DNA of 64,000 nt, from positions 3,260,001 through 3,324,000 of the forward strand of contig JALDRJ010000002.1 of assembly GCA_031315865.1 (NCBI GenBank), given 5' to 3'. Shown here piece after piece: positions 24,165-48,623 of the stretch (the stretch's first letter is position 1; every line of letters begins with the position of its first letter). This DNA is from Nitrospirales bacterium (GTDB taxonomy: Bacteria; Nitrospirota; Nitrospiria; Nitrospirales; UBA8639). Position numbers and translations under genes: made by a program. The notes beneath the pieces are model-generated. The model did not search any database, was not told where the DNA came from, and saw nothing but the letters and a program-made list of their open reading frames with translations.

Positions 24165-24189
24165 AGGGAGTAATGGCTAAATAATGTAT

Positions 24190-24216: not shown

Positions 24217-24224
24217 CTATGGAC

Positions 24225-24578: not shown

Positions 24579-24581
24579 ATC

Positions 24582-26507: not shown

Positions 26508-27255
26508 ATATAGCTCCACTGTCAGAAATAACCGCCTGAATGTGTTCTCTGCTGCCGCCATATTTTTGAAGACCTGCAAAACCATGTAGTGGTGTATCAC
26601 TATGTTCTAGAACATTACCAATAAGCTCACCAAATACCGTAAAAGCCGCGACCCGATATTCTTCGGAGGATTGTTGAATAAATTTATTTGTTAATTCTTC
26701 AATTAGGTCTTCATTTGTTGCACTGGTATCAATAGTTCCAAATTCAACAAGTGTATCACTTTGCCCCTGATATTTTTGTGCCGCAGATATCAAAGGACGA
26801 TCTGGAAGAACAACGACATGTTCATCCAAATGATCAAAGAACCCTGAGCGGTTAAGATATGCTCTTGTCTCTCCAGCATTAGAAAAATCCATAGTTACGT
26901 TTTTACCGAAGCGGGCTAGCTGATTTCCTAATGCAAGCAATCTCTCGATACAATCAATCATCGTCTTACAACCAGAAGAAAAATTAATTTTGATGTTTTG
27001 ATTGTCTTCGGTGATAAGATCACCAGCCTGTTTGAGAATTATTTCAAAGTTATCTCCGGTTACCCATTCAGGTGGTAAAACTAATTCTTTGCCCTTTATT
27101 AAAGACCACCTGTATTCAGAATCTTGTTGGTATCTTTCCGGATGATCATACAGGAAGGAATTAACTTCCTTGCGACTGATCCCCAATTCTGAGGCTATTT
27201 TTTTAGCCTTTATGGGGGAATATTTGAGTAAAATACTGTCTATATCCTGCTTCAT
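26482..27255 (-). pseudogene. Winged-helix plus GHKL ATPase-like protein, C-terminus lost to IS256
   Basis: 257 codons, minus strand. Residues 1-55 look like a winged helix (I-A-S-E-L-G-I-S-R-K-E-V-N-S-F-L). About 75-150 form an alpha/beta module resembling a STAS-like fold (I-N-F-S-S-G and V-T-M-D-F-S-N-A-G-E-T-R). From 200 a GHKL ATPase begins: G-E-L-I-G-N-V-L-E-H-S is the N box and I-S-D-S-G the start of the G1 box. Here the IS inverted repeat supplies the last eight or so codons and the stop, so the ATP lid is missing. The intact protein was probably an ATP-binding sensor or regulator. Function unknown. Confidence 0.7.
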
Positions 27256-27293
27256 AGATTATGATCTCGGTCGTAATAGTCTTTTCAGATTTC

Positions 27294-28502
27294 TTAAAGC
27301 ACCACGCTGCTCATATGTCCATCAATAACTTCCTCTATTTCAGAGGGCAGAGCATAGTGGGCCTTGTTTTTCTTCCAGGCCTCCCTAGTTTTTTCTGCTG
27401 TTTCCCCCGCTGCGTCTAACACCAGTTTTTTTGGCAACCCGGCCTTTTCCGCCAGCTTTTCAAATAGCTGTAAATCACACAGCATCATATCCTTTGTATT
27501 CAAAAATTTTAGAGCCAGCTTGTCGCCCGGAATATAAGGGATTGTGGAAACCAAATCGTAAGCCGGGGACAGTTCCGGCGTCCGCCCGTCCCTGTAAATG
27601 AAAGACCAGTTTTTTAGATGCATGTCGCCATTGCCGGTCAGAATCGTAAAGGCCAGATGCCGGATGAAATCCCGCAAACCCTCTTCGCCCGTCAACGTCC
27701 AGACCATCCCGGCGATATTGGTAAAACTGACGCCTTCATATTTTTTCTCCGGAAAAACGCTGTAGACTTGCGCAAAATCTTCGATATGGATGCGCTTGCC
27801 ATCCTCCGTACGATCAAAACGCTTGACTGCAAGCGCCTGCTTACCTCTTAACTTCCCAAAATCCGGCAGGCCGACAATGTCGGATAGAGGAACCAGTTTT
27901 GTTTCCGGGACGGGGATCCCAATCTCCGCCGCCATATGCATCATGGCGTATTCGTTTTCCGGGATGTTGTCATAGGCCGGTGACGGCAGTTTGACAATCC
28001 AGTTGCCGCCCATGCCGCTTGCCGGGATGGTCAGACCGCCATTACGCGCCATCAGCGCGGAGAATTTCAGCTGAACACCCGCCAAAGAAAAGCGCAAAGG
28101 CTGCTCCGCTTCCTTGCTTTCAGATCGTTCCTGTTCTTCTTTTTTCCGTGGGAGCGAAAACCCTTTTGCCGGTTTGGCAATCACCGCGCCGGGCAAATCT
28201 TCTCCCAACAGATAGAGAAGATAAAATTCATGGGTCGGCTTTATGCCGCCACGTTCGGCCAGATACGCGCGTAAATGTCCTTCCGGCAAGAGGTTCGAAA
28301 AAAACGGCGGCACTTTTCCGCTATAGGCCTTGGGAGGGGTGAGTAAATCTCCCTCTGCGGAAAAATAGGACTGGCTTAATACAGGGCGCTTGGGATCATC
28401 TGCATAGGATTCATCAAAGGAAAATAGGTTCCGGCCGCCGGGGAGCAGGGTTAACACGCCGACGCGCCGCTCATTCAGAAAAATGTCTAGTACGCTTGTC
28501 AT
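27294..28502 (-). CDS. hipA: HipA-family Ser/Thr kinase toxin
   Basis: The 402-aa product has the HipA_N couple domain (V-G-V-L-T-L-L-P-G-G) and the kinase body: S-L-A-G-V-Q-L-K-F-S-A near residue 140 as the P-loop-like segment, W-I-V-K-L-P-S near 168 with the ATP lysine, the catalytic loop G-N-G-D-M-H-L-K-N-W and the metal-binding A-Y-D-L-V-S. E. coli HipA phosphorylates GltX and causes growth arrest. All visible key residues are present, so it looks active. It overlaps hipB by four bases (ATGA). Confidence 0.93.
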   Translation of the reverse strand: MTSVLDIFLNERRVGVLTLLPGGRNLFSFDESYADDPKRPVLSQSYFSAEGDLLTPPKAYSGKVPPFFSNLLPEGHLRAYLAERGGIKPTHEFYLLYLLGEDLPGAVIAKPAKGFSLPRKKEEQERSESKEAEQPLRFSLAGVQLKFSALMARNGGLTIPASGMGGNWIVKLPSPAYDNIPENEYAMMHMAAEIGIPVPETKLVPLSDIVGLPDFGKLRGKQALAVKRFDRTEDGKRIHIEDFAQVYSVFPEKKYEGVSFTNIAGMVWTLTGEEGLRDFIRHLAFTILTGNGDMHLKNWSFIYRDGRTPELSPAYDLVSTIPYIPGDKLALKFLNTKDMMLCDLQLFEKLAEKAGLPKKLVLDAAGETAEKTREAWKKNKAHYALPSEIEEVIDGHMSSVVL

Positions 28503-28798
28503 GCCAGTTCCTCTTCATCACTTTCAGATAAACTGTCAGGCTGCCAGGCTGGTTTCCGCTCCTTCGCACGGCCGGATATGACGGACCGGACAGCCGGGGT
28601 CAAGGCACGCGGGATCAGCATCGGCTCCAGATCAAGGAGGCGGGCCATTTCCTGCAGGCTGGAGAGGCGCAAATCCACCTCGCTCGCTTCAATCTTAGAA
28701 ATATGGCTTTGCGGCAGCCCCATCTTTTTACCCAGCTCCGCTTGCGTCAGCCCTTTTTCCTTGCGGGCCTTCTTCAATTTTTCAGCAATTTCTTTCAT
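28499..28798 (-). CDS. hipB: HipB-family XRE antitoxin / repressor
   Basis: The 99-aa product has an XRE helix-turn-helix at about 5-60 (G-L-T-Q-A-E-L-G-K-K-M-G-L-P-Q-S-H-I-S-K-I-E) and a tail of about 35 residues ending acidic (S-E-S-D-E-E-E-L-A), likely the degradable or HipA-contacting part. It binds HipA and represses the operon. Two palindromes lie just upstream of its start. Confidence 0.92.
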   Translation of the reverse strand: MKEIAEKLKKARKEKGLTQAELGKKMGLPQSHISKIEASEVDLRLSSLQEMARLLDLEPMLIPRALTPAVRSVISGRAKERKPAWQPDSLSESDEEELA

Positions 28799-28818
28799 CT
28801 CTTCCTTATAGTCTATAC

Positions 28819-28873
28819 TAGCATAGTATATGCTATAACATATAATATAAAATTAAAATATGCTACTGCATAT
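28819..28873 (-). promoter_or_regulatory. Paired palindromes upstream of hipBA
   Basis: TAGCAT-N5-ATGCTA at 28819-28835 and ATATGC-N4-GCATAT at 28858-28873 are perfect dyads sharing the ATGC core, 39 bp apart, in a very AT-rich segment. The first lies 21 bp before the hipB start. E. coli hipBA has several such operators, so these are good candidates for HipB binding. Confidence 0.65.
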
Positions 28874-28999
28874 ATAACGGCAAGTCCCCTCTTATACATT
28901 ATGGATAGTTTCAATTTTTGCTTTAGACAAAAGCCAAAATTGATATTTATTGAAAAACAACGACTTACATCTCTTTTAACCTGTGCTATTTTTGCTTTT

Positions 29000-29635
29000 A
29001 TGAATAAAAATAGAAAAGCAAAAATTGAGAATGACCCATGGAACAAGGATAAAGCCGTTGGTCAGATGGCACCCTTTACCCCTGATCAGGCCGGCCTGAT
29101 CCGATCCTTGCTGGTTGCCGAGAAAAAAATCCGGGATCTGGCTCTGTTCAACATGGGTATCGATACGATGCTGCGTGCGTCTGATCTTTTACCCTTACGT
29201 GTGATCGATGTCACCGATCACAATGGTGATGTCGTTCATGAGTTTACGGTCCGTCAGAAAAAAACCAGCAAAGGTCATGTGGTTGCCCTGACACCGGATA
29301 CCCGCGACTCGGTCGCTGACTGGATGATTGCCTCCGGCAAGGGCCCGGAAGATTATCTCTGGACCAGCATCGGCAACAAACCTTCCGTCAAGCACCTCAG
29401 CCGCGAACAATATGCCAATCTGGTAAAAAACTGGTGTTATCTCGCCCGCATGAATCCCAAAACCCATAGCACCCATTCCGTGCGGCGCTCAAAATCAGCC
29501 GCCATTTATGACGCCACACATAATCTGGCAGCCTGCAAGGAACTACTGGGACACAAGAACATCGGGAGCACGGCTCATTATCTGGGGGTCGATCAAAGAG
29601 CGGCGCTTGAATTAGCCAAGCGCGTCAAAATATGA
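29000..29635 (+). CDS. Stand-alone tyrosine recombinase (catalytic domain only)
   Basis: The 211-aa product is a phage-integrase catalytic domain with almost no N-terminal arm- or core-binding domain. Visible active-site residues are R in T-M-L-R-A-S-D-L, a lysine in K-K-T-S-K-G-H, H and R in H-S-V-R-R-S-K, and L-G-H-K-N-I-G-S-T-A-H-Y with the second His and the nucleophile Tyr. This short form is common on plasmids and islands. It is divergent from hipBA and may move or resolve this island; no att site was found. The frame opens upstream of 29000, but that part is AT-rich and looks non-coding. Confidence 0.85.
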   Translation: MNKNRKAKIENDPWNKDKAVGQMAPFTPDQAGLIRSLLVAEKKIRDLALFNMGIDTMLRASDLLPLRVIDVTDHNGDVVHEFTVRQKKTSKGHVVALTPDTRDSVADWMIASGKGPEDYLWTSIGNKPSVKHLSREQYANLVKNWCYLARMNPKTHSTHSVRRSKSAAIYDATHNLAACKELLGHKNIGSTAHYLGVDQRAALELAKRVKI

Positions 29636-30945: not shown

Positions 30946-33354
30946 ATGAACGAGTCGGAAAGCAGCAAGGTACGCGCAAACAATCTTCGTCAAATGGATC
31001 AACACGATTCAACAGCTCATGAGGCGATTGATCGACTCAGCATTATAGCCCATCGTGCTCCGGTCTTGATTCGAGTGTCAGACGATGACGGGAAATGCAC
31101 ATTCGTCAATCAGCAGTGGTTAGACTTTACGGGACGCCCCCCAGAGCAGGAGTTAGGAAATGGGTGGATGGACGGCGTGCATCCTGACGATATTCCGGCC
31201 TATCGTGAGACTTTCCAGGCTGCGGTCAACAGACAACATCCGTATACCATGGAATATCGACTCAGGCACGCCGGCACCGATTATCGATGGGTGTTGGAAA
31301 CTGGAGTTCCATGGCAGAAAACTGATCATACGATTGACGGGTATGTCAGCTCGACCATAGATATTTCCCTACGCAAGGAAGAAGAGTGCCGAATGCAACA
31401 GGCCTACACAGAACTCAAACGCCTGTGCGACGAGCAAACGGACAAGCTCACAAAAATCAGTGAATCTCAACAGCAATGGATCATTCAACGAGAGCGTGCG
31501 GAACAGATTCTTCAGCAAGTATCAGGAGGAACGACCTCAACGATTGGCCCAGCTTTTTTCCGTTCTCTTGTTGAACACGTGGCCGCCGCCTTTGAATCGC
31601 GCTACGCATTTGTGGCGGAGCTGAGGGAACGTGGTTCCCGTGTACGTACCCTCGCGTTTTGGACACCGGACGGAATTATCCCAAACACTGAATACGATAT
31701 CGCACATACGCCTTGCGAACGAATCTTAAATGGGAAAGTTTGCCATTTCCCTGAAAACGTATCCTCCCATTTCCCCCACGACCGCCACCTGGACGAATTG
31801 CAGGTAGAAAGCTATTTGGCCATTCCCATAACCGATCCATCGGAAAAAGTCATAGGGCATCTGGCGATACTCGACCACAACCCCATTTCGATTCAACCTC
31901 ACTCGTTACCGGTCCTGAAAATTTTCGCGGCGCGCGCCGCTGCGGAGCTCCAAAGGCAGTCCGCGGAGACGGCCATACGCGCGGTCAAGGAACAACTTGA
32001 GCATATCATGGCGTCTGCCATGGATGGGATCATTACCGTGGATGAACATCAGATGGTCACCGTGTTTAACCAAGCCGCCGAAAGTATGTTTCAGTGTTCC
32101 GAGAAGGACGCCATCGGGTACTCGCTTGCTCGCTTTATTCCCGAACGCTTTCGTCTGGTCCTCCAAGAATACATTCAGCGCACTGATGCCTCGCATGAGC
32201 CTCAGACTCCGGTCCCACAGCTGCCGATTCTCTACGGTCTTCGTGGCGATGGGAAGGAAATACCCCTAGAGGCGTCCCTCTCCCAAGTCAATGTGGGAGG
32301 GAAACGGTTGTTTACGATCATCCTTCGTGACCTAACCGAACGATATCGTGCAAAGGCCACGATCAATAAACTGCAACAGACGAGAAAATATCTTCAGGAG
32401 GAAATCAACACCGAGCTGAAGTTCCAGAACATGGTCGGGCAGTCTCTGGCCATGAAAAAAATCTTTAAACTCGTACAGTCCGTTGCTCCCACCGATACCC
32501 TGACCTTAGTGACCGGTGAAACAGGAACTGGCAAGGAATTACTGACTCGCGCCATCCATAACCTGAGTCACCGAAAAAAAGAGATGTTCATCAAGGTCAA
32601 TTGTGCGGCCATTCCAGCCGGGCTCATCGAAAGCGAATTGTTTGGTCATGAAAAAGGCGCCTTTACCGGCGCTATATCCCGGCATATCGGCCGGTTTGAA
32701 CTTGCTCACAAGGGTACGCTGTTTCTGGATGAGATCGGTGAGTTGCCCCTGACGCTCCAGGGGAAACTCCTCCATGTACTTGAAGCCGGGGCATTCGAAC
32801 GCGTTGGCGGAACACGGACAATCAAAGCCAATGTTCGCGTGATTGCGGCGACTAATCGGGTGTTGGCACATGCTGTGCAGCAAGGGCAGTTCCGACAAGA
32901 CCTGTTCTATCGCTTAAATGTCTTTACCCTCCATATCCCGCCGTTGCGAGATCGAAAAGAAGACATTCCCTTGCTGGCAGAATTTTTCCTGCAAATCTAT
33001 AACACAAAACTTGGCAAATCGATTACGAAAATTCCCGAATCGGTCATGGCGAGTCTCAGTGCGTATCACTGGCCCGGGAACGTGCGAGAACTTGAGCATG
33101 TGATCGAACGGGCCGTGCTCATCAGTGAAGGGACAGATCTGGCGAACGTGGAAGGATTGCACTCGTCAGTTGAGACAGCCAATCCGGGTCTTTTCCCCAC
33201 ACTCGAAGACATCGAACGAGAACATATTCTCAAGGCATTACACGTCACCAATTGGCGTATCAGCGGCCCCAAAGGGGCGGCCAAACTCTTGGGTCTTAAA
33301 CGCACAACGCTCGACTCAAAGATAGACAAACTTGGCATACAAAAAGACTCATAG
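30946..33354 (+). CDS. Sigma-54-dependent activator with PAS, GAF and PAS sensor domains
   Basis: An 802-aa cytoplasmic regulator. Order: PAS with PAC (about 25-150), coiled coil (150-190), GAF (about 200-345), second PAS (about 350-465), coiled coil, AAA+ core with Walker A G-E-T-G-T-G-K-E near 523, the sigma-54-contacting G-A-F-T-G-A near 571, Walker B L-F-L-D-E-I-G-E and the R-x-D-L-F-Y-R-L-N finger, then a Fis-type HTH (about 755-800, L-G-L-K-R-T-T-L). The layout is that of FhlA-like activators. The ATG at 30946 is close to another ATG at 30942 out of frame. It lies upstream of the extracytoplasmic gene cluster on the same strand, which it may control. Confidence 0.93.
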   Translation: MNESESSKVRANNLRQMDQHDSTAHEAIDRLSIIAHRAPVLIRVSDDDGKCTFVNQQWLDFTGRPPEQELGNGWMDGVHPDDIPAYRETFQAAVNRQHPYTMEYRLRHAGTDYRWVLETGVPWQKTDHTIDGYVSSTIDISLRKEEECRMQQAYTELKRLCDEQTDKLTKISESQQQWIIQRERAEQILQQVSGGTTSTIGPAFFRSLVEHVAAAFESRYAFVAELRERGSRVRTLAFWTPDGIIPNTEYDIAHTPCERILNGKVCHFPENVSSHFPHDRHLDELQVESYLAIPITDPSEKVIGHLAILDHNPISIQPHSLPVLKIFAARAAAELQRQSAETAIRAVKEQLEHIMASAMDGIITVDEHQMVTVFNQAAESMFQCSEKDAIGYSLARFIPERFRLVLQEYIQRTDASHEPQTPVPQLPILYGLRGDGKEIPLEASLSQVNVGGKRLFTIILRDLTERYRAKATINKLQQTRKYLQEEINTELKFQNMVGQSLAMKKIFKLVQSVAPTDTLTLVTGETGTGKELLTRAIHNLSHRKKEMFIKVNCAAIPAGLIESELFGHEKGAFTGAISRHIGRFELAHKGTLFLDEIGELPLTLQGKLLHVLEAGAFERVGGTRTIKANVRVIAATNRVLAHAVQQGQFRQDLFYRLNVFTLHIPPLRDRKEDIPLLAEFFLQIYNTKLGKSITKIPESVMASLSAYHWPGNVRELEHVIERAVLISEGTDLANVEGLHSSVETANPGLFPTLEDIEREHILKALHVTNWRISGPKGAAKLLGLKRTTLDSKIDKLGIQKDS

Positions 33355-33877: not shown

Positions 33878-34510
33878 ATGCTTTCACGATCGTACGCTCA
33901 ATCCCTACGCACAATATTTGGAGTGGTCGGATGCCTCATGATCATTTTTGGGGTTCTATCGACTCCATCAGTCGCCAAAAGCAAAGGCGACCGCGTCTAT
34001 ACTTTCAATGACAAAGACGAACTGCTTCAACCGATGGATTGGGCCGTCCCTTCGAATTGGCGAGAAGAATGGATTTATGTCGGAACGCCAGTCACGCCAA
34101 ACGATATGAATAATGGCAAAGCCTCCTTTCCGGAGTTTCACAGCGTGTATATCCATCCGGATCATTACAACGTCTACAAAAAAACCGGAGCATTTCCCGA
34201 CGGGACGATCCTCATTAAGGAAATGACGAGCGTGGGATCGAAGCAGGCTGTCAGTGGGAGCGGCTATTTCATGGGTGAATACCTCGGCCTCGAAGCGACG
34301 ATAAAAGACTCGAAACGCTTCAAGGATGAGCCTGGAAATTGGGCCTATTTCAGTTGGACCAATCATGAGGGTGGGCCGCGGAAGAAGACAGCCAAAGCCG
34401 AACCAGCCGGAAAGTGTAACATCTGTCATCAAGCGTTTGCCAAAGATGATTGGGTCTTTACTCAGTATTATCCCGTGCTTCGAGCGGCAAAGCCTGCACG
34501 AGGAAAATAA
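33878..34510 (+). CDS. Cytochrome P460-family protein, exported, one haem
   Basis: The 210-aa product has a signal peptide (about 1-33, ending V-A-K) and a mature P460-type domain. The haem motif is C180-N-I-C183-H184 close to the C-terminus, as in known P460s. H-S-V-Y-I-H-P-D-H-Y and F-P-D-G-T-I-L-I-K-E near the middle are family landmarks, as is W-A-Y-F-S-W-T. In ammonia oxidisers cytochrome P460 uses a haem-lysine crosslink to oxidise hydroxylamine; related proteins handle other small nitrogen species. I cannot tell which substrate this one has. GGAG precedes the start. It leads a run of exported proteins. Confidence 0.88.
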   Translation: MLSRSYAQSLRTIFGVVGCLMIIFGVLSTPSVAKSKGDRVYTFNDKDELLQPMDWAVPSNWREEWIYVGTPVTPNDMNNGKASFPEFHSVYIHPDHYNVYKKTGAFPDGTILIKEMTSVGSKQAVSGSGYFMGEYLGLEATIKDSKRFKDEPGNWAYFSWTNHEGGPRKKTAKAEPAGKCNICHQAFAKDDWVFTQYYPVLRAAKPARGK

Positions 34511-34593
34511 TTCGGTTGTCATCATGAAATCTTGCAACGTTCACACAGCAATCGCATGGTCATTGCGGTAACAACTTTAGAGAGGGGGTAGTG

Positions 34594-34986
34594 ATGAAAT
34601 ATTCTGCATTCAACCTGAGTCTTCTATTCTGCCTGTTGGCAAGTGTGGCATGGGCGGAGCATCCGGGAATTGCCACGACTCATCGAGATGCAATCCAAAA
34701 CGCCATGGGAAAGCATATTGAGGAGCAAATCCGATTAAACGGCAATGGGAAATACCCGATGTTCGATCCCGAAACACGGACGCTCAAACAACTACAATTT
34801 AAAGCCTTTCACGACAGTGTGGAGGTCAAGGGAAGAAAAAACCCGTATTTCGTGAGCTGCGCAGACTTTGTCGCTGAGGATGGCACGCTCTACGATCTTG
34901 ATTTTTTCGTCTCAAAAAACTATGGCGTCGTTTCTGCCATCGTACATTCGAAGAACGGTGTCCATACGGACTATGACATCCATTAA
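34594..34986 (+). CDS. Small secreted protein of unknown function
   Basis: The 130-aa product starts at ATG after AGAGGGGGT. It has a clear signal peptide (about 1-20, cleavage after W-A-E or A-W-A) and a mature part of about 110 residues with one Cys, K-A-F-H-D-S-V-E-V-K-G and a Y-D-L-D-F-F-V strand. No haem motif. It lies 83 bp after cytochrome P460 and is followed by a strong terminator, so the two genes probably form one transcript. Function unknown; perhaps a periplasmic partner of P460. Confidence 0.75.
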   Translation: MKYSAFNLSLLFCLLASVAWAEHPGIATTHRDAIQNAMGKHIEEQIRLNGNGKYPMFDPETRTLKQLQFKAFHDSVEVKGRKNPYFVSCADFVAEDGTLYDLDFFVSKNYGVVSAIVHSKNGVHTDYDIH

Positions 34987-35099
34987 GGATGTCGTAGAGC
35001 CCGGTTACTTTCTGAGTGAGCCTACATCGATGACTGTCGCATCACATCATCGAAAGTGTCGGCACTCACCACCGTCAAATATGTAATTGTTGTATGGAT

Positions 35100-35126
35100 G
35101 AAGCTCCCCAAGCTCAGGGGAGCTTC
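35100..35126 (+). terminator. Strong hairpin after the P460 pair
   Basis: GAAGCTCCCC (35100-35109) and GGGGAGCTTC (35117-35126) pair perfectly over seven bases. AATTCCATTTTT follows, with the T run slightly delayed. Confidence 0.8.
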
Positions 35127-35288
35127 AATTCCATTTTTCAACCCATTGGCTTAGGGACGAGAACGTCAATTGAACTTGAGACTTTGAGCTAGAGCAGAGA
35201 TCGTGGGAAACATTATTAATAATAGCGGACATACGTTTTTGAGAGAACGAGGACGACATATTGAGCGACATATTAAAGGAGTACATTC

Positions 35289-36776
35289 ATGAAAATACCT
35301 GCATTCAGGCTGGGAGAGCGGACTGAGAATCATCAATGGCCATCCCATGCCTCAAGAGTCATGCCGTTGCGTGACGACAGATCCGTACGATTCAATCGTT
35401 TGATTGTCTTGGGGTTCGTTTTGCTATGGATTGGATTTCTGAGCCAATCATTGTCTGCGCATGCGGCGGAAGGGCGATTCCTGTACATCGAGAGCAATCA
35501 TGTAGATGAGGGACAAAATTCTATCGTCGCTTATTCTAGACATGCAGACGGAAAGCTTACACCATTGCCCGAGGGCCCGTTTCTGACGGGTGGAACAGGA
35601 ATCAACAATGACACCCATGGAAAGCTCGGGCCGGACGATAATGATACGCCCCTCGCCTTAAGCGAAGATGGAAAGTATTTATTCGCGGTCAACACGCATA
35701 GCAACACGATTGCCGTGTTCAAGGTATTGGAAAACGGTTCGCTGCGTCACGTGAAAGGATCTCCCTTTCCTTCGAGAGGCATCGGTCCGAATAGTCTTTC
35801 GGTCTCTGGGAATATCCTGCTTGTATCGAATCGCAATGGAGATTATCATCAATTAGAGCAGCTGCGAGGCGCGGCAAAAGCCAATTACGTTTCCTTCCGC
35901 GTGAATGACGATGGAACGCTCACGTTTCTCTCGTCCATAGACGTCGAAGGTGCCCACAAGCCGACGCAGGTGTTGTTTTCAACTCTTCATAACCGGATCG
36001 CCTTCGGGAACGATTTCCAGGTTGACGCGGATTTTGACGGAGACGGGGCACGCTCATGGCTCGCTGGCCGTGAACAGAAAGTCCAGGGGCAATTGCACGC
36101 CTTCACGCTCGATGCATCCGGGCATCTCATAGAGACCGACCGTGTGACGTTGCCTGAAACAGATCCTGGGCATCTCTACGAAGGTGCACCTGGCGTCCCT
36201 TCCCTTCCTTTGGGACTATGGGACCATCCAACCAAAAATCTCCTCTATGTAGGATTCGTCACCCGCAATGAATTAGGTGTCTTCCGTTACTCCCGCGAAG
36301 GCAAGCTGACGTTTGTCACCTCGGTCCCAAACGGCGGGCAAGACATTTGTTGGCTTCTTACCAATCGAGCCGGGACCCGTCTGTATGCGGTGAATAACCT
36401 CAACAGGCAGGAAACCAAGGACAAATCGGGATCAATTTCGATCTATGACATTTCAGGCGAGAAAGCCGAGCGGCCGGTGGAGATAGGGCGTGTTCAGACG
36501 CCCTTGCCTGGTGAGTCGTTTATCAACAATCGGATGTTTTTGCAGCCAGGGAGCACGCCCTTTCAAATGGCTCTCGATCCGACCGAAAAGTTTTTCTACG
36601 TCATCAACCAACGTATTAATCAGACGCCAGAGAACAAGAGTTCCGAAGGTAATTTTTTGCATATGTTCAAAGTCGAAGAGTCAGGTCTGTTAACGCTCGT
36701 AGATTCACGCGACTTAAGGAAGGATGGGCTTCCTAGCCACTCACGACCTCAGGGAATCGTCATCCTCGATCGGTAG
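35289..36776 (+). CDS. Exported beta-propeller protein (lactonase / YVTN type)
   Basis: A 495-aa product. A basic region of about 35 residues precedes a hydrophobic signal (about 38-60, ending A-H-A-A), so the true start may lie further in. The rest is a seven-bladed-propeller-like series with repeated units such as L-A-L-S-E-D-G-K-Y-L-F-A-V-N and M-A-L-D-P-T-E-K-F-F-Y-V-I-N, each followed by G-x-L-x-x-V-x-x-S-P-like strands. It resembles the 6-phosphogluconolactonase / YVTN superfamily, but periplasmic location argues against a pentose-phosphate role. It has its own 300-bp upstream region, so it may be a separate transcript. Confidence 0.85.
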   Translation: MKIPAFRLGERTENHQWPSHASRVMPLRDDRSVRFNRLIVLGFVLLWIGFLSQSLSAHAAEGRFLYIESNHVDEGQNSIVAYSRHADGKLTPLPEGPFLTGGTGINNDTHGKLGPDDNDTPLALSEDGKYLFAVNTHSNTIAVFKVLENGSLRHVKGSPFPSRGIGPNSLSVSGNILLVSNRNGDYHQLEQLRGAAKANYVSFRVNDDGTLTFLSSIDVEGAHKPTQVLFSTLHNRIAFGNDFQVDADFDGDGARSWLAGREQKVQGQLHAFTLDASGHLIETDRVTLPETDPGHLYEGAPGVPSLPLGLWDHPTKNLLYVGFVTRNELGVFRYSREGKLTFVTSVPNGGQDICWLLTNRAGTRLYAVNNLNRQETKDKSGSISIYDISGEKAERPVEIGRVQTPLPGESFINNRMFLQPGSTPFQMALDPTEKFFYVINQRINQTPENKSSEGNFLHMFKVEESGLLTLVDSRDLRKDGLPSHSRPQGIVILDR

Positions 36777-36904
36777 GCGCATTGTCGCGTTCTCAAAGCC
36801 AGCGAGTACGCAAAGCAATGGTGATGAATAGCGTCGTATAGACCTCGGAATTCAACGGGTGTACGAAAAATGTACGGTTAACTTATTCATGGAGGACAGT
36901 AAGC

Positions 36905-37693
36905 ATGAGAATCAAACAGATGATCGTCATAGTTGTTGCGGTACTTGCTCCAAGTTTGGGGTATGCCAATGAATCGTCCATATCGGACGTGAAGCGTGGA
37001 ATCACCCCGCATGGCTATGTCTACCAACAAGACTTTATGCCCAAAGAAACACTCGAGATTGACTTAGCAAGGACCGCGATCTTCATCACCGATCCACAGA
37101 ACGATTTCCTGTCAGAGGGAGGCGGGGCCTGGGCTTTGGTCGGAGGACAGGTCGTCTCGAGCAAAGTTGTGGAGCATGAAATACAGCTGCGGGATACGGC
37201 GAAGACCGTAGGCATTCCGGTCTTTTACTCGCCCCATATGTATACCAAAATGGATTACGCGCATTGGAAAAGCCTGAATGCGATCGACAAACTCATGTTT
37301 CAGCAGAAGATGTTCATCCAAGGCACATGGGGACATGATTTTCATCCCAAACTCAAGCCAGACGACAACACAGTGGTCATGAATTCCCATAAGGGATTGA
37401 GCAATTTTTGGACCGGCGACGCCGTAATTCAACTACGGGAATACGGTATCGAGACGATCATCATGGCGGGCATGTCCGCTAATTTGTGCGTGGAGTCACA
37501 TACCAGAGATGCCATTGAAAATGGATTTGAAGTCATTATCGTGGCGGATGCCACGGCTGGAGCTGGGCCTTACTCCAAGAAGGCAGCGCTCATCAATTAT
37601 GAATATATCGCCCATGAAGTCGTCACGACGGATCAAATCATCAAGCGGCTGCTTGCAGCGAAGAAAATGAAAGATGCCAGCGCGACGAAATAA
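36905..37693 (+). CDS. Exported isochorismatase-family cysteine hydrolase
   Basis: The 262-aa product has a signal peptide (about 1-22, ending Y-A-N) and a complete isochorismatase-like hydrolase domain. The catalytic triad is visible: D63 in I-T-D-P-Q-N-D-F, K163 in S-H-K-G-L-S and C195 in S-A-N-L-C-V-E-S. Relatives cleave isochorismate, nicotinamide, N-carbamoyl amines, biuret or other C-N bonds, and almost all are cytoplasmic. Export is unusual and suggests a small amide-type substrate in the periplasm. It sits between the propeller and the haem lipoprotein on the same strand with a GGAGG-type site upstream. Confidence 0.9.
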   Translation: MRIKQMIVIVVAVLAPSLGYANESSISDVKRGITPHGYVYQQDFMPKETLEIDLARTAIFITDPQNDFLSEGGGAWALVGGQVVSSKVVEHEIQLRDTAKTVGIPVFYSPHMYTKMDYAHWKSLNAIDKLMFQQKMFIQGTWGHDFHPKLKPDDNTVVMNSHKGLSNFWTGDAVIQLREYGIETIIMAGMSANLCVESHTRDAIENGFEVIIVADATAGAGPYSKKAALINYEYIAHEVVTTDQIIKRLLAAKKMKDASATK

Positions 37694-37803
37694 TAAGAGA
37701 GTTGATCGCTGACACGCGGTGACGACATGGTGTGTCTGGCGCCGGGCCACCATGTCGCCTCGTAGATCAATCGGGAAGAGCTGACCATACAGGAAGGCTG
37801 CTT

Positions 37804-38964
37804 ATGCGCTATGCAATTTTGATTCTTGGACTCCTTGTCGTGGCATGTACGCCCACAACAGAAACGGTTGGCGTACGTGACGCCCAAAATCAATTTTCTG
37901 AGGGCTGGGATAAGGACAAAGCGGCAGAATGGCTGGATGCTCGCGCGGATTGGTGGCTCCACGCGGAACGGACTCAACGAGTCACAGACGAGCAGGGGAG
38001 CGTTGCCTGCTTTGGATGCCACACGGTTCATACGTACACGTTCGTGCGTGCAGATTTGGCGCCGGGAACCGGTTCAGTGCCGCACATCATGAATACTATC
38101 GCGCGGCGTCTCGCCGCAGGCGTCAATGTCCCCCCCTGGAACGTAAAGCCTGAAGGCCGAGAACAGCAGTCTCGCGGATCCGAAGCGATTAATGCCGCAT
38201 TGTTATTGGCGTATCAAGAGGCCCGTTCCGGAGCCGCACAGCCTTCAGACAGACTGTTGACCGCATTCGACCGGCTTTGGCACTGGCAACGACTGGATGG
38301 TGGATGGGATTGGTTTAATTTTTCTTTTGAACCTTTGGCGACTATCGAAGCCCAACACTTCGCGGCCTGTCAAGCCGCTATTGCCGTTGGAATCGCCCCA
38401 GGCTATTACTCGGATGATTCCGCGAGTCCCGAACTCAGGCGCCATGTCGAGATGCTTCGAACGTGGGTACACAACTCTCGCAACAAAGAGAATCTTTTCG
38501 GCGAAGCCTGGCTGCTCAGAGCATCGACGAAACTCAGCGGGCTTCTCGAACCAGGAGAGCGGACAGAAATCGTTGAGAGGCTGTTAGAGAAACAGGTGAC
38601 CGAAGGTGAGGACTCCGGCGCATGGATGCTCTATAACCTCAACCGCTGGAAATATAGTCAAAGCGCGCCTCCTGCCATCCCACGAGATCTGCTCCCAGAG
38701 GCACGAAAGCCTGATCCATACTCGACTGGAATGATAAGCGCGATTCTTATGGACTACGGTGTTCCGGTCGATCATCCCTCAATTATCACAGCTATCGCAT
38801 GGTTAAAGGCCCATCAACAGGACGACGGTTCATGGAGAGCTTATTCAATCAATAAGATTCGCGATAAGGATGATATCGCCTATCTCTTCATGAGCGACGA
38901 GGCAACAGCATGGGCGGCCCTGGCCCTCCTGGAGTTCGAGCGAAGAGGTGGTAAAGGAGTATAG
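37804..38964 (+). CDS. Lipoprotein with a haem c motif and alpha/alpha-toroid-like body
   Basis: Started at ATG 37804 behind AGGAAGG, the 386-aa product has a lipoprotein signal ending V-V-A-C. One haem c motif C69-F-G-C72-H73 stands in a short N-terminal segment. The remainder (about 110-386) is rich in helices with repeated W/G motifs such as L-D-G-G-W-D-W-F and Q-Q-D-D-G-S-W-R-A-Y. This Q-x-x-D-G-S-W pattern is that of terpene cyclase / prenyltransferase toroids. The cyclase acid motif D-x-D-D is not evident, so this is probably the fold and not the activity. I know no named family with this combination. Confidence 0.75.
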   Translation: MRYAILILGLLVVACTPTTETVGVRDAQNQFSEGWDKDKAAEWLDARADWWLHAERTQRVTDEQGSVACFGCHTVHTYTFVRADLAPGTGSVPHIMNTIARRLAAGVNVPPWNVKPEGREQQSRGSEAINAALLLAYQEARSGAAQPSDRLLTAFDRLWHWQRLDGGWDWFNFSFEPLATIEAQHFAACQAAIAVGIAPGYYSDDSASPELRRHVEMLRTWVHNSRNKENLFGEAWLLRASTKLSGLLEPGERTEIVERLLEKQVTEGEDSGAWMLYNLNRWKYSQSAPPAIPRDLLPEARKPDPYSTGMISAILMDYGVPVDHPSIITAIAWLKAHQQDDGSWRAYSINKIRDKDDIAYLFMSDEATAWAALALLEFERRGGKGV

Positions 38965-39075
38965 GCCGCATTTTCTTCTCCTCACGGTGTCGCGAGTCCC
39001 AGGGGTAGTTTCTCCCGCAATCGTCAATCATTGGGCCACTGAAAGAACTATAAAGATTATGAAAGGAACGTTCTT

Positions 39076-40074
39076 GTGAAATCACGGCTGCTTCTAGGAA
39101 TACCATTCGCGCTGCTCGCCTTCCTCATGCTCAAGCAGCCTGCTTTAGCTGAATGGCGGTTTGATGGCAAGCTCAACGTATTTTACACCGATGATACCTC
39201 GCTTTTCTCTGCGTCACAGCGACTGTCTTTGCGGGAAGATCCGACACAGCCCGTGATTGATGTGACCAATCAGGGAGAGGATATGGTGTTCGAACCCGCG
39301 ATCTCATTCGGTAGATTATTTCGGCCATCCTGGGGCGATGTCGAGCTCACCCTCAAAGCTCAAGGCTATGTGTTCGCAGACCATTCCGAGTTCGACCATG
39401 GCACGTATGGAGGACAGGTCACTCAAACGCTTTCACCCGAGACGCGGGCTCGGTTGCGGTATCACTATGGCCCGAATTTATTCTTAGGCAGAAACGAAGA
39501 AAAGGGAACGGAGAGTGAGCGCCTGGTTGAAGAGCGTGTCTCGACTCACTTTGGTACGCTTGAGTTGGAACACGATGTCCGGGAAAACCTCATGGTTCGT
39601 TTGCTCGGCCGGTATGGGCACCGATCGTATAACGAAGCGTTCAAACAACGCGATACGGACTTTTGGACAGTGGGGACTCATGCCGCATGGGAAATGATTC
39701 CTGGGGTTGAACTTGTGGTAGGTTATCACTACGAACGAACGCTGGCCGACGGACGAAAGAAGCCTGAACTCGAGGATGATATTTCTTCATTCATTCACTT
39801 CATCGTCGCGGAACTCGCGGTCGAAGTGACAGAAAAAACGGCGCTTACATTTGGGTTTGATTTCGAACGAACAGACTTTACGACGGGGATTCGGGGGGAT
39901 GAGCGGCGGAATGGGAGTGAAAATGTCTATCAGGGCGAGATTGAAGTGAGGCATGCCATTCACAAAAACATTGACGTATCATTGTCATATCAACGAAGTC
40001 AGAGAAAGTTCAGTATTGAAGATCGTCAGGCGATCATCAATACGGTATGGATCGGCAGCGCCTACCGATTTTAA
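39076..40074 (+). CDS. Outer-membrane beta-barrel protein
   Basis: The 332-aa product starts with GTG. It has a signal peptide (about 1-25, ending A-L-A) and a mature chain of alternating hydrophobic and polar residues typical of beta-barrel strands, ending in Y-R-F, the C-terminal aromatic signature for outer-membrane insertion. Many strands are paired with D/E/R-rich turns. It resembles outer-membrane beta-barrel proteins often annotated as porin-like. It is the last gene of the extracytoplasmic cluster and may bring a substrate to the periplasmic enzymes. Confidence 0.85.
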   Translation: MKSRLLLGIPFALLAFLMLKQPALAEWRFDGKLNVFYTDDTSLFSASQRLSLREDPTQPVIDVTNQGEDMVFEPAISFGRLFRPSWGDVELTLKAQGYVFADHSEFDHGTYGGQVTQTLSPETRARLRYHYGPNLFLGRNEEKGTESERLVEERVSTHFGTLELEHDVRENLMVRLLGRYGHRSYNEAFKQRDTDFWTVGTHAAWEMIPGVELVVGYHYERTLADGRKKPELEDDISSFIHFIVAELAVEVTEKTALTFGFDFERTDFTTGIRGDERRNGSENVYQGEIEVRHAIHKNIDVSLSYQRSQRKFSIEDRQAIINTVWIGSAYRF

Positions 40075-40262: not shown

Positions 40263-41606
40263 ATGAACGCCTGCCGCAAGGATCTTATCGGGTGTCAGGA
40301 TTGTGGGCATATTTTTGATAAACCGGCTTGCCCGCATGGGGAAGAATTGAGTTGTCAGCACTGCGGAGCCGTATTATTGGTGAACCGTAAGGATTGGCTT
40401 ACCAAGGCGGTTGCCTTTACGTTGACGGGAATCATCTTGTTCGGGGTCACGCTTTCCGTTCCCTTTTTGGGGCTGGAAGCTGCCGGTCAGACTCAGTCCA
40501 GCCATTTAGTAAGCAGTGTGGAGGCCTTGCTTGAACGCAAGCAGTTTCTGTTGGCCACGCTGGTATTCGTGACGGTTGTCTTGTTCCCCTTAGCGGAACT
40601 CATAGGACTTTCGTATGTGCTGGGCGCTCGAATGTTAGAACGCCGCGCGCCAGGGTTCAAATGGGTGCTGCATATGCTATTTTTAGCCCGCCCCTGGAAT
40701 ATGATGGAAATTTTTTTCCTGGGCATGCTCGTGACGGCCGTAAAGCTCGGGGATCTGGCAGAATTGCAACCGGGCATCGGTGTGTTTACGTTCGCAGGCT
40801 TAGTGGTTGTCCTGATCTTGAGTCATATGCATCTCAGCCGCGAAGAACTTTGGGATTGGATTAAGGAAGAAAATTACCATACTATGGGCAATAGGGAAGG
40901 GGCTACAGGGAGTCCTGTCGATGAGGAATTCGTCACGTGCCGCACTTGTCGCGCCATGGTGTCGATGGCGCTCATCGAAGACAATGCCCGATGTCCACGT
41001 TGTCAGAGTCCGTTATCGACACACCATGCACAGAGCTATCAGCGCAGCCTGGGGCTACTCGTGGCCGCCGCAGTGTTATTCATCCCAGCCAATACATTAC
41101 CCATCATGACGACTGCCACGTTTGGCACGACCACGTCCAACACCATCTTCTCGGGTGTGGTACATTTAATCGAAGAAGGTGCCCTGGGGATTGCTGCGGT
41201 GGTGTTCGTGGCAAGCATTATGGTCCCCATTGCCAAATTTCTGATCATGGGATATTTGTTATGGGCGGTGAAGCATCCCGGCACAGGAACCCCTGAACAG
41301 CAGATCACGCTCTATCGAATGATAGAGTTTGTCGGTCGCTGGTCGATGATTGATGTATTCGTCGTAGCCCTGCTCGTGTCTTTGGTACAATTCGGGTCGC
41401 TCACGTCCATTGAACCCGGAGTGGCCATCCTGTGTTTTGCCGCGGTCGTTGTCTTGACCATGATGGCGGCGGAGACATTCGAGCCTCGATTAATTTGGGA
41501 TGCATACAACGAGCACGAGAAGGAACCGCACGAAAAAAACCGTGACGATGCCTCTGAAGTCAAATCCCGGCATATAATGGCGATCACGTCTCGATCACAA
41601 AACTAG
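40263..41606 (+). CDS. pqiA: PqiA-type membrane protein
   Basis: The 447-aa product is a tandem duplication. Each half begins with a zinc-ribbon-like pair of CxxC motifs (C-Q-D-C and C-Q-H-C in the first; C-R-T-C and C-P-R-C in the second), followed by four membrane helices. The second half carries F-G-T-T-T and E-F-V-G-R-W-S-M-I-D-V-F, hallmarks of paraquat-inducible protein A. PqiA is the inner-membrane part of a lipid-transfer system that works with an MCE protein. pqiB begins six bases later. Confidence 0.93.
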   Translation: MNACRKDLIGCQDCGHIFDKPACPHGEELSCQHCGAVLLVNRKDWLTKAVAFTLTGIILFGVTLSVPFLGLEAAGQTQSSHLVSSVEALLERKQFLLATLVFVTVVLFPLAELIGLSYVLGARMLERRAPGFKWVLHMLFLARPWNMMEIFFLGMLVTAVKLGDLAELQPGIGVFTFAGLVVVLILSHMHLSREELWDWIKEENYHTMGNREGATGSPVDEEFVTCRTCRAMVSMALIEDNARCPRCQSPLSTHHAQSYQRSLGLLVAAAVLFIPANTLPIMTTATFGTTTSNTIFSGVVHLIEEGALGIAAVVFVASIMVPIAKFLIMGYLLWAVKHPGTGTPEQQITLYRMIEFVGRWSMIDVFVVALLVSLVQFGSLTSIEPGVAILCFAAVVVLTMMAAETFEPRLIWDAYNEHEKEPHEKNRDDASEVKSRHIMAITSRSQN

Positions 41607-41612
41607 AACCAG

Positions 41613-43238
41613 ATGGCCACGAACACGCCCGTTGTTTCGAAAATTTCATCTTTTTCACCCGTCTGGATTGTGCCAGTGATTGCGCTCCTGATCGCAGGGT
41701 GGCTAGCCCTGAAAGCCTGGCAAGAGATGGGGCCGACGATTGAAATCGTGTTTGATAGCGCAACGGGAATTGCAGTTGGCAAGACGCAGGTCCGTTACCG
41801 TGATGTCACCGTCGGGCAGGTACAAAACATTCAGCTCAGCGAGGGATTTGAAAAGGTCTCCGTCTTTGTCGAACTCGACCCTCATATTTCTTCGCTGATT
41901 TCAGAGAATACCCGGTTTTGGGTGGTCTCACCGAAAATTTCCGGCAGGGGAGTCAGTGGATTAGATACAATATTATCCGGCGTCTATATTGAGATGGCTC
42001 CAGGCAGTCCCGGCGCGGAAAAGTTTCGATTTGAGGGGCTCAGTGAACCGCCGGTCGTGCGTTCCTATGAAAAGGGCAATCATTACGTGTTGAAGGCGGA
42101 GAGTTTGGGGTCACTCGACACGGGTTCACCAGTTTACCATCATCAGATTCCGGTTGGCGAAGTCACCGGCTACACCTTTTTCCCTGAGGAAGACCAGCAG
42201 GTGCATATTCAAGTGTTTGTCAAAGCTCCTTATGACAAATTGGTCACCACACGCAGTCAATTTTGGAATATCAGCGGCATCGATGTCGTCATAGGACCAG
42301 ACGGGATCGAGGCGAACGTCGCACCACTCACCTCTGTGCTCGCCGGCGGTGTCGCGTTCTACTCACCGTCTTCTCACGGGACAGACGTCGAACTTGCCGA
42401 ACAAGGGCACCAGTTTGAACTGTTTGAGAATAAGGAGGCGATCAGAGAGGCCGCGATTATGACTTCATACGAATACTTGTTGCGGTTTACCGGCTCCGTG
42501 AGGGGACTGCGAGTCGGTGCTCCGGTCGAATTGCGAGGACTGCAAGTCGGTCAAGTGACGCATGTCGGACTCGGGTTTATGTTAGATGATGAACCTGCCA
42601 CCAATGTTGTGATCGGCATACAACCGGAAAGATGGACTTCTGACGATCTCCCAACTCAAGAACATTTGAACATTATTTTTTCACGGCTGGTTGCCGAGGG
42701 TCTTCAAGCGCAAATCCGAAGCAGCAACCTTATTACCGGGGCGACGTTTATTGATCTTGTTCCGAATGCGACGACACATATGAGTCTATCACGCGTTAAA
42801 AAGCTGATAGGGGAGCAAGGCTACATAGAGTTACCCACAGGAGACAGTGAATTCACGCAATTGACCAATCAACTTTCAGCCACAGTAGAAAAAATTCAAT
42901 CCATCCCGTTCGACTCCATCGGACAGAATGTTGACGCAAGTCTCACCAGCCTTCGAAATATTGTGACGACCCTCGAAGATTCTAATGTCGCCGGGAATTT
43001 CGGAGATATAGCCATGAGCCTCAAAACAGCGACAGACGGCCTGGATGCGACGGTTCGGCAATTAGATCACATGCTGCAGTCCGTCGACCAAACGATCGCT
43101 CCGGACTCGGAACTGAATCATAATATGAATAAAATGATCCGAAACATCGCCAAGGCAGCGAAATCCATGGAGAAGCTAACGGATGAACTCAATCGATATC
43201 CGAACGCGGTCCTTCGTGGCAGGGAGGACGATGACTGA
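41613..43238 (+). CDS. pqiB: PqiB-type MCE protein
   Basis: A 541-aa product with one N-terminal membrane helix (about 15-32) and three MCE domains, each starting like G-I-A-V-G-K-T-Q-V-R-Y-R-D-V-x-V-G-Q-V (about 45-130, 155-235 and 285-385). A long coiled-coil-forming C-terminus follows (about 410-520). MCE rings with such tails build a tunnel across the periplasm that moves phospholipids between membranes. Its length is near that of E. coli PqiB. It overlaps pqiC by one base. Confidence 0.93.
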   Translation: MATNTPVVSKISSFSPVWIVPVIALLIAGWLALKAWQEMGPTIEIVFDSATGIAVGKTQVRYRDVTVGQVQNIQLSEGFEKVSVFVELDPHISSLISENTRFWVVSPKISGRGVSGLDTILSGVYIEMAPGSPGAEKFRFEGLSEPPVVRSYEKGNHYVLKAESLGSLDTGSPVYHHQIPVGEVTGYTFFPEEDQQVHIQVFVKAPYDKLVTTRSQFWNISGIDVVIGPDGIEANVAPLTSVLAGGVAFYSPSSHGTDVELAEQGHQFELFENKEAIREAAIMTSYEYLLRFTGSVRGLRVGAPVELRGLQVGQVTHVGLGFMLDDEPATNVVIGIQPERWTSDDLPTQEHLNIIFSRLVAEGLQAQIRSSNLITGATFIDLVPNATTHMSLSRVKKLIGEQGYIELPTGDSEFTQLTNQLSATVEKIQSIPFDSIGQNVDASLTSLRNIVTTLEDSNVAGNFGDIAMSLKTATDGLDATVRQLDHMLQSVDQTIAPDSELNHNMNKMIRNIAKAAKSMEKLTDELNRYPNAVLRGREDDD

Positions 43239-43849
43239 TGACAAGGGAGCATCCGATTCTTACCTGGGTCGCCGCTGGAGCTTTCCTTATCATGCTGAGC
43301 TGTACCGCCCAACCCAAGACGCACTATTATGATTTGGCAGCACAACAGACCTCTGTTCCAGGAAAGTTGGGCCGTGACCTGCACTTAGGGGTCGGCCCTT
43401 TCTCCTTTCCGGACGTTCTCGATCGGGAGGGAATCGTCACCCGGAGCTCCTCTGTCAACCTCAACGTCTCCACGTACCACGTGTGGGCCGGTTCTCTAGA
43501 ACAATCGTTCACCCGGGTACTTGGAGAATCACTGGCCTCTCATCTGAATCAAAACGATGTGTGGACATTTCCATGGGAAACTCGTTTTCGTCCGGAATAT
43601 CAAGTTAGGGGGGCAGTGAGTCAATTTTCTGGAGAAGCTGGCGGCACAGTGAAGTTAACGCTACAGTGGACATTACTCGGAGATCATGGGAAAAAGATCG
43701 TCAAGAGTTCCAGGTTTCAACATACCACGACCGCAGACGATACGAGTTACGATGCCTATGTGACTGCGCTGAATCGATTGGTGAATATGTTCGCCAATGA
43801 GTTATCCACAGAAATTATGGCCCACCTCCCTCAAGACTCCCGACCTTAA
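43238..43849 (+). CDS. pqiC: PqiC-type lipoprotein
   Basis: The 203-aa product has a lipobox I-M-L-S-C and a mature part starting H-Y-Y-D-L, as in the ABC-type transport auxiliary lipoprotein (DUF330) family. PqiC is the outer-membrane-anchored partner that docks PqiB. The start overlaps the pqiB stop as TGATG, so translation is coupled. Confidence 0.9.
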   Translation: MTREHPILTWVAAGAFLIMLSCTAQPKTHYYDLAAQQTSVPGKLGRDLHLGVGPFSFPDVLDREGIVTRSSSVNLNVSTYHVWAGSLEQSFTRVLGESLASHLNQNDVWTFPWETRFRPEYQVRGAVSQFSGEAGGTVKLTLQWTLLGDHGKKIVKSSRFQHTTTADDTSYDAYVTALNRLVNMFANELSTEIMAHLPQDSRP

Positions 43850-47369: not shown

Positions 47370-48623
47370 TTGCTCACACAACAACGGCTTCATAAACACA
47401 AGTTTCCTTTATCTCTTTCCAGTAAATGGCCTCCTTCTTGTACCTTTATCATTGGGGTATGTTGCGTGTTGCCGCTCGCAGGATGTCTATCGCCCATTGC
47501 TATGGAACGAGCCGTGATGCAATATGACGCAAAGTTCAGTCTCACTGAAGCCAATCTTTTGCTCCTCAACATTGCCCGGTCTAAATATCATTTTCCGATC
47601 CATTTTACTACGGTTCCCAACATTGCCGCCTCCTTTGAATTTCGAGCGGACACCGGTTTTAGAGGGTCCTTTTTTGCAAACCCGACCGCTGGCTCAGATC
47701 AGGCCAATATCTATGGCTTCGATATAGGGGCCAGTGTCTCGGAACGGCCCACGATCTTTATTACGCCCGTTCAGGGAGAAGATTTCACCAAACGGCTCTT
47801 GACGCCAATGGATGAAACAAAATTTGAATTTTTGGTACATCAGGGAGTCCCACTTGCCATGCTTCTACGCATCATGGCATTGGGCATTGTCATTGATAAT
47901 CATGGCATTCAAGAGTGGTTTCCGAATACCCCGTCACAGCCTGAACACTATCTGGAATTTCGGAAGCGAGTCCTACATTTGGCATCGTTGGAAACACGAA
48001 ACCAAATAGACCTCGGTCCTATCGAGTACGATCGCGTTTGGCCAAAATCCACATCCGATAACATCGACCCACAAGAAATTGAGGTGGCCTACACACAGGG
48101 TTATCGGTGGGCAGACACGGAACAACAAGACGCTGTTCTGAAAAAACGGGTCGTCGGCAGAATGTTACTGGCCAATTATCGTCCCTCTCAGTTGTCGAAC
48201 AAAGCGCGACGTGCCCTGGAGGATCGTGCCATGCAATTTCCCCGAAATTTTATTTTGATAGATATTCATCCCGAATTCCCAGGTGGCGCCTATCCACTGC
48301 AGGGATGGATTAAATTGCGCAGCTTTCGGGGCGTTTTGGGATTTATTGCTGAAGGCATCGATGAATATCCAGAATTTCATGTAAATTCCGATTCTCGCAC
48401 AGAAAAAGTGAATGACAATCCTGTTAGAACCTTGGCCATCGAAGAAACCCCAGATGAACGTGAAGAGCCAGCCTTTTCCGTTCGCTTTCAAGATAAATAC
48501 TATTCGATCTCTTCGAGTTCAAAATGGGATTTAAAAGCTTTTGAGGTCTTGCATCAGCTTTTTCAGATGACGGTCAGTGACGTGACCAAAGTCCCAGCTC
48601 CACCGATCACGATCGCAAAATAA
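47370..48623 (+). CDS. Conserved lipoprotein of unknown function
   Basis: A 417-aa product with a TTG start behind AAGGAG. The signal (about 15-40) ends in a lipobox L-P-L-A-G-C. The mature part begins S-P-I-A-M-E-R-A-V, then L-L-L-L-N-I-A-R-S-K-Y-H-F-P-I-H-F-T, a pattern I recall from large hypothetical lipoproteins of Proteobacteria and Nitrospira. P-I-x-G-E-D-F-T-K-R-L-L-T-P (as V-Q-G-E-D-F-T-K-R-L) is also typical. No catalytic motif is visible. It is intact while both neighbours are decayed. Confidence 0.75.
   Translation: MLTQQRLHKHKFPLSLSSKWPPSCTFIIGVCCVLPLAGCLSPIAMERAVMQYDAKFSLTEANLLLLNIARSKYHFPIHFTTVPNIAASFEFRADTGFRGSFFANPTAGSDQANIYGFDIGASVSERPTIFITPVQGEDFTKRLLTPMDETKFEFLVHQGVPLAMLLRIMALGIVIDNHGIQEWFPNTPSQPEHYLEFRKRVLHLASLETRNQIDLGPIEYDRVWPKSTSDNIDPQEIEVAYTQGYRWADTEQQDAVLKKRVVGRMLLANYRPSQLSNKARRALEDRAMQFPRNFILIDIHPEFPGGAYPLQGWIKLRSFRGVLGFIAEGIDEYPEFHVNSDSRTEKVNDNPVRTLAIEETPDEREEPAFSVRFQDKYYSISSSSKWDLKAFEVLHQLFQMTVSDVTKVPAPPITIAK

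Follow-up and report, generated by a model that had tools for sequence, protein, structure and literature searches.

A conserved cytochrome P460 partnership in a Nitrospirales island with a possible role in hydroxylamine and nitric oxide detoxification

We analysed a 64,000-nucleotide stretch (hereafter the window) of Nitrospirales bacterium contig JALDRJ010000002.1 (assembly GCA_031315865.1, positions 3,260,001 to 3,324,000, forward strand), in which six consecutive open reading frames (ORFs), all on the plus strand between 33878 and 40074, encode a cytochrome P460, a small secreted protein (SEC), a beta-propeller (PROP), an isochorismatase-like hydrolase (ISO), a haem lipoprotein (HLP) and a predicted outer-membrane barrel (BARREL). 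A sequence-only reading had proposed that the six proteins form a single pathway that takes in, cleaves and oxidises a small nitrogen compound. Our best explanation, to which we assign a probability of roughly 55%, is that the region is a hydroxylamine and nitric oxide (NO) detoxification and envelope-stress island of a nitrite-oxidising Nitrospirales bacterium, with P460 and SEC as its dedicated core, and not a pathway for importing, cleaving and oxidising a nitrogen compound. What the analysis shows directly is which genes are present, which residues they keep, how far they are conserved and where a terminator is predicted; the mechanism is inferred from these.

Results

The first gene of the run encodes a protein that matches PF16694 (E 7.7e-27, 94.6 bits against a cut-off of 27) and carries the haem motif CNICH at residue 180. 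Among PDB entries it matches the P460 of Nitrosomonas europaea (NeP460) with an E-value of 1e-51 and cytochrome c'-beta with about 5e-9; by sequence it is far closer to the N. europaea hydroxylamine oxidase than to cytochrome c'-beta. Lys114 aligns with the cross-linking lysine (Lys70 in NeP460, Lys106 in NsP460), Glu139 with the distal carboxylate Glu96 of NeP460, and Phe84 with the capping residue Phe76 of NsP460. Cross-linking lysine, distal carboxylate and capping residue go together with hydroxylamine oxidation (PMC11928373, Table 2), and because all three pocket features are present the protein is predicted to be competent for hydroxylamine chemistry, so that this part of the sequence-only reading holds as a prediction. 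Compared with the N. europaea enzyme (CytL), the window protein shares the fold family, CxxCH motif, cross-link lysine, distal glutamate, capping phenylalanine and predicted hydroxylamine oxidation, but it has histidine in place of Arg44, recurrent partners (SEC and PROP) and a nitrite-oxidising host without detectable ammonia monooxygenase (AMO).

Three further P460-family proteins are encoded in the host genome: a type B and a type C, both with the lysine and without the carboxylate, and one without the lysine that is probably a cytochrome c'-beta. Types B and C each make up a distinct clade with full support in a tree, where the window protein falls among the other type-A proteins. The type B and C copies, found in related islands and elsewhere in the host genome, resemble 'halfway house' P460s such as NsP460 in keeping the lysine and lacking the carboxylate, whereas the window protein has the carboxylate and B and C remain clades of their own. 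The lysine-less fourth protein (L066 about 9789 = G000:C2:2259330; L073) lies about 5 kb from one of the NxrB copies of the host.

The host genome (3.78 Mb in 2 contigs, 98% complete) contains three NxrB-type genes; the best PDB match of the translated 429-residue NxrB is subunit B of nitrite oxidoreductase (7b04, E 1.4e-177), and a search of the genome for AMO returned no match. Because of these three genes and the lack of an AMO match, the host is very probably a nitrite oxidiser. It is congeneric with Nitrospirales bacterium NPIRA02 (G003 = BQIV01000016; island locus L024). For relatives cited by code (such as G001), genus and family labels are those of the search tool; genes in relatives were called by longest ORF, and N-terminal export signals were judged by hydropathy and inspection. 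Because the genomes counted are related to one another, the counts do not represent independent events.

SEC matches no Pfam family, and its AlphaFold model (predicted local distance difference test score, pLDDT, of 52) was too weak to be used for a fold search. Among 117 relatives there are nine strong matches (at least 59% identity). Eight of them immediately follow a type-A P460 gene and share its strand (the window, G001, G003, G024 twice, G030 and G044 twice), and the ninth is a second copy within the NPIRA02 island. Seen from the side of P460, each of the eight type-A copies examined in the family has SEC as its next gene. At three of the loci SEC is in turn followed by a truncated haemoglobin, recognised in one by Pfam (PF01152, E 6e-12) and in the other two by the same N-terminal sequence. 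We regard the association of P460 with SEC as genuine and as the probable dedicated core of the island.

The hairpin that follows SEC (35099-35127, with the T-rich stretch to 35137) is the longest and strongest terminator-like stem of the region (fold z-score -4.2). A 12-bp stem, unlike it in sequence, lies equally far downstream of SEC in NPIRA02 (L024:7100-7128). Because this positionally conserved hairpin parts P460 and SEC from PROP, the pair is probably transcribed on its own, and the run is split into at least two predicted transcription units. A single six-gene operon was considered and rejected, given the internal hairpin and the absence of HLP from the syntenic NPIRA02 island.

PROP, the first gene beyond the hairpin, matches the lactonase family PF10282 (E 5.4e-14, 52.6 bits against a cut-off of 21.7). 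Its structure model (pLDDT 74, predicted template-modelling score 0.78) is closest to 6-phosphogluconolactonases and PpgL (Z 37 to 4qrj, 6nau and 1ri6); PROP thus appears to share family and predicted fold with these propellers, but is only about 20% identical to them and has P460 as its genomic partner. When the genomes of 84,980 species were scanned with a sequence pattern, 15 loci came up. They belong to Nitrospira, NPIRA02, Gemmataceae, Isosphaera, Bryobacter, an acidobacterium and contigs that carry the label Nitrosospira, one of these contigs matching a Nitrospira contig almost exactly. Removal of duplicates and addition of the window and one further genome gave a set of, again, 15 loci. 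P460 lies near PROP in 14 of these non-redundant loci, which span Nitrospirota, Planctomycetota and Acidobacteriota, with gaps of 0.05-3.3 kb, and the single locus without it is a 3.3-kb contig. Orthologues from all three phyla share 59-62% identity with the window PROP. Both planctomycetes have PROP flanked by a type-A P460 on one side and a type-B P460 on the other; the acidobacterium has its two P460s next to each other just upstream of PROP, the type-A copy with Asp in place of Glu. Two of the type-B copies at planctomycete and acidobacterium loci are fused to cytochrome c. The uncultured "Nitrosospira" contig L044 (CAADGK010000068.1) differs from L036, a contig of a Nitrospira metagenome-assembled genome, at 38 of 21,350 bases, and because of this near-identity its label is probably wrong.

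The signal peptide of PROP does not follow the gene across these phyla: it is present in the window, NPIRA02 and the planctomycetes, and there is none in Nitrospira or the acidobacterium. By sequence, the compartment of PROP is not conserved and, because the Nitrospira and Acidobacteria proteins lack the signal, a common periplasmic pathway cannot be counted among the conserved traits of the cluster. All six window proteins do begin with a hydrophobic segment followed by a plausible cleavage site or lipobox, as had been claimed, and the two c-type haem proteins were also rightly recognised (CNICH in P460, CFGCH in HLP). However, the export of six neighbours is by itself weak evidence; conservation across genomes is what counts.

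ISO matches PF00857 (Isochorismatase, E 3.9e-33, 115 bits against a cut-off of 27), so that the C-N hydrolase proposed earlier is better described as an exported isochorismatase-like cysteine hydrolase and not as a nitrilase-type enzyme. With RutB, biuret hydrolase and 3kl2 it shares the fold family and the conserved Asp63 and Cys195, but it is exported, is 30% identical to the aligned 3kl2, and has the catalytic lysine position shifted by one residue in the alignment, the presumed catalytic lysine of 3kl2 falling on His162, next to Lys163. NPIRA02, G110 and Nitrospira ACE_NIT7 have copies with 63-90% identity, none of them more than about 5 kb from PROP, and among the relatives copies with at least 60% identity are confined to genomes that hold PROP. 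BARREL (PF10082 BBP2_2, E 1.4e-7) has a 77% identical counterpart at the same place in NPIRA02 and is present in several Nitrospira islands; its family occurs in 56 of the 117 relatives, many of them without P460. Both ISO and BARREL are members of this island in a congener as well as in some Nitrospira.

HLP is the exception to this pattern. Its C-terminal part resembles squalene-hopene cyclase (PF13243, E 4.9e-8), preceded by a lipobox (LVVAC) and one CxxCH motif (CFGCH), and it is missing from the NPIRA02 island, where synteny otherwise extends from the regulator through PqiC. The 145 other genomes hold one distant relative (L027:966-2018, 28% identical, beside a transglutaminase gene), and a scan of genome contigs for HLP found no relative. 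HLP is, judging from these comparisons, not a conserved member of the island, and it was discarded as a cluster marker, its family being found in only 2 of 146 genomes, its own included. The expectation that the genes would stay together is thus borne out for P460, SEC, PROP, ISO and BARREL, which recur jointly, and fails for HLP, which is missing from NPIRA02 and nearly everywhere else.

The company kept by P460 and PROP in related genomes is that of stress defence. The Nitrospira islands also hold a di-haem cytochrome c peroxidase (CCP), a c4 lipoprotein, PqiABC, MsrA, MsrB and SelO, and further a DyP peroxidase, AlkA, Ogt and Crp-type regulators. A catalase is found in the NPIRA02 island and, between PROP and a type-B P460, a fusion of cytochrome c with nitrite reductase NirK (PDB NirK match, E 1e-142). 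By gene content, these are nitrogen-oxide and oxidative-damage genes and not genes of import or catabolism. Nitrosation can cause alkylation damage, and we infer that Ogt and AlkA fit damage of that origin. Nitrospira moscoviensis (NZ_CP011801.1) carries its P460/PROP/NirK island twice in inverted orientation, at 4415347-4436654 (L031) and 85616-106923 (L043), and the two copies do not differ at any of the 21,308 bases compared. Frameshifts interrupt three genes of the NPIRA02 island, PROP, ISO and PqiA (L024 7274-8757, 11340-12112 and 16060-17347); three of them in 10 kb suggest sequencing errors rather than decay.

Table 1. Features of the window discussed in the text; the starts of HLP (near 37804), SEC (34594) and PROP (perhaps 35361) are inferred corrections.
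Feature	Position	Strand	Basis
Sigma-54-dependent activator (PAS-GAF-PAS-AAA-HTH_8), candidate regulator	30946..33354	+	Pfam; synteny
Type-A cytochrome P460	33878..34510	+	PF16694; Nitrosomonas P460 PDB match; residue mapping; tree
SEC, small secreted protein, no known family, type-A P460 partner	34594..34986	+	Position after type-A P460
Terminator-like hairpin after SEC	35099..35137	+	11-bp stem, then T-rich stretch
PROP, predicted seven-bladed lactonase-type beta-propeller, exported here	35289..36776 (start may be 35361)	+	PF10282; model; P460 neighbourhood
ISO, exported isochorismatase-like cysteine hydrolase	36905..37693	+	PF00857; copies near PROP
HLP, haem lipoprotein with squalene-cyclase-like C-terminal part	37804..38964	+	Lipobox LVVAC; CFGCH; PF13243
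BARREL, predicted outer-membrane beta-barrel	39076..40074	+	PF10082/PF13505, weak matches
PqiABC envelope transport genes	40263..43849	+	PF04403
Predicted lipoprotein, family c4	47370..48623	+	c4 in 9 loci; no Pfam family

Discussion

Nitrite oxidisers are inhibited by hydroxylamine and NO that come from ammonia oxidisers, and nitrous oxide (N2O) is a product of P460. In the explanation that we favour, the periplasmic P460, matured by its lysine-haem cross-link, would oxidise hydroxylamine that leaks from neighbouring ammonia oxidisers or is formed internally, yielding NO or N2O, as is known for the family (PMC11928373). It could also consume NO together with hydroxylamine, its electrons passing to a periplasmic cytochrome c, and SEC would assist in its maturation, electron transfer or stability. 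PROP and ISO might constitute another unit, transcribed apart from P460 and SEC, that would clear away or repair a by-product of this stress, such as lactone- or amide-type adducts; PqiABC and BARREL would serve the outer membrane, and HLP would be a lineage-specific insertion. Sensitivity to NO is reported for Nitrospira-dominated sludge, in which 65 nM NO inhibits nitrite oxidation (PMC6478695).

Several observations weigh against a detoxification island. PROP is predicted to be cytoplasmic in most orthologues. The stress genes reside mostly in the islands of Nitrospira, which is another family, and of that theme the window has only P460 and PqiABC. The host's own type B and C P460s sit elsewhere on the chromosome, the kinetics of P460 with hydroxylamine may be slow in vivo (PMC6478695), and the roles given to SEC, PROP and ISO are guesses.

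A bolder version of the proposal is that P460 and PROP, with a second, carboxylate-less P460 close by, form an undescribed nitrogen-oxide enzyme module shared by Nitrospirota, Planctomycetota and Acidobacteriota. The propeller would then act directly on a product or partner of the P460 reaction, and nitrite oxidisers would transform hydroxylamine with such P460s; we hold this to be possible, but with the odds clearly against it.

Related islands with catalase, DyP, CCP, MsrA/B and SelO could also be read as a general defence against peroxide and reactive oxygen, with P460 as a peroxide-related haem protein that does not act on nitrogen compounds. We find this unlikely: the cross-link lysine position is intact, and NeP460 acquires peroxidase-like activity only when that lysine is replaced, not as wild type (PMC11928373); the NirK and globin neighbours point to nitrogen oxides.

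It seems unlikely, too, that P460 and PROP make up one enzyme complex. The idea draws on a loose analogy with hydrazine synthase, which combines a propeller, a di-haem CCP-like subunit and a haem that handles hydroxylamine and NO, and it is encouraged by the linkage across three phyla, by the similar identity of the window PROP to orthologues of all of them, and by the CCP-like di-haem protein of the Nitrospira islands. The PROP fold matches hydrazine synthase beta as well, but the Z-score of 29 is level with those of unrelated seven-bladed propellers, and the HzsB equivalog model NF052340 scores 12.8 bits against a cut-off of 560, so that PROP was rejected as a hydrazine-synthase homologue for want of a family-level match. 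Additionally, P460 requires the periplasm, and in Nitrospira and the acidobacterium PROP has no signal peptide, which leaves no shared compartment in most relatives.

The pathway of the sequence-only reading, with BARREL admitting a small nitrogen compound, the exported hydrolase cleaving it, and P460 and HLP oxidising the product, we consider improbable. The synteny of five of the genes in NPIRA02 and the restriction of close ISO copies to PROP-holding genomes speak for it. Yet HLP is not conserved, PROP is not exported in most orthologues, a terminator-like hairpin follows SEC, the BARREL family is widespread without P460, and the neighbours in relatives are stress-defence genes and not those of transport or catabolism; uptake and cleavage of a nitrogen substrate find no direct support. 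The genes might also have been acquired independently and come together by chance in a mobile region, as is suggested by integrase and transposase genes in the 10 kb upstream and by the presence of the PROP-bearing island in only two of the five genomes of the genus. This is very improbable for P460-SEC and P460-PROP, whose pairings are repeated over families and phyla, and plausible for HLP only.

The presence of P460 in some Nitrospira has been reported as sporadic (PMC6478695, PMC6311188), and it is also reported in the nitrite oxidiser Nitrobacter (PMC12213059); two comparative genomics papers on Nitrospirales make no mention of it (PMC10579370, PMC12342949). What appears to be new are the conserved P460-PROP and P460-SEC partnerships, neither of which was found in the literature searched. 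A 2025 review describes nitrite oxidisers as unable to transform hydroxylamine (PMC11928373); given the residues of the window P460 this statement is testable, and the cultured Nitrospira moscoviensis carries a related island. If the detoxification reading is correct, a nitrite oxidiser that combines a catalytically complete P460 with dedicated partners would act as a hitherto unrecognised hydroxylamine sink and possibly as a source of N2O, and SEC and PROP would provide two new handles on P460 maturation or use.

Flanking genes and regulation

The adjoining sensor-type sigma-54 activator noted in the sequence-only reading was confirmed (PAS-GAF-PAS with HTH_8), and NPIRA02 has a 75% identical protein in the corresponding place. 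In most related loci, too, type-A P460 has a sigma-54 activator in its neighbourhood; the whole host genome has only about 25 such activators. A sigma-54 promoter scan of the whole window gave a count equal to that of shuffled sequences, and a scan upstream of type-A P460 genes gave no -24/-12 promoter that is conserved, the one window match near 33491 not being kept in NPIRA02 or other relatives. Control by the adjacent activator is likely, as judged by neighbourhood.

Downstream of the run, PqiA, PqiB and PqiC families are also found near P460 in NPIRA02 and Nitrospira loci, and the c4 lipoprotein sits directly after type-A P460 in Nitrospira. Upstream of the sigma-54 activator, 20278-29635 is a mobile-element region with Tn3-type and IS256-like transposases and a HipA-like protein, named from reading of their sequences, and a phage-type integrase.

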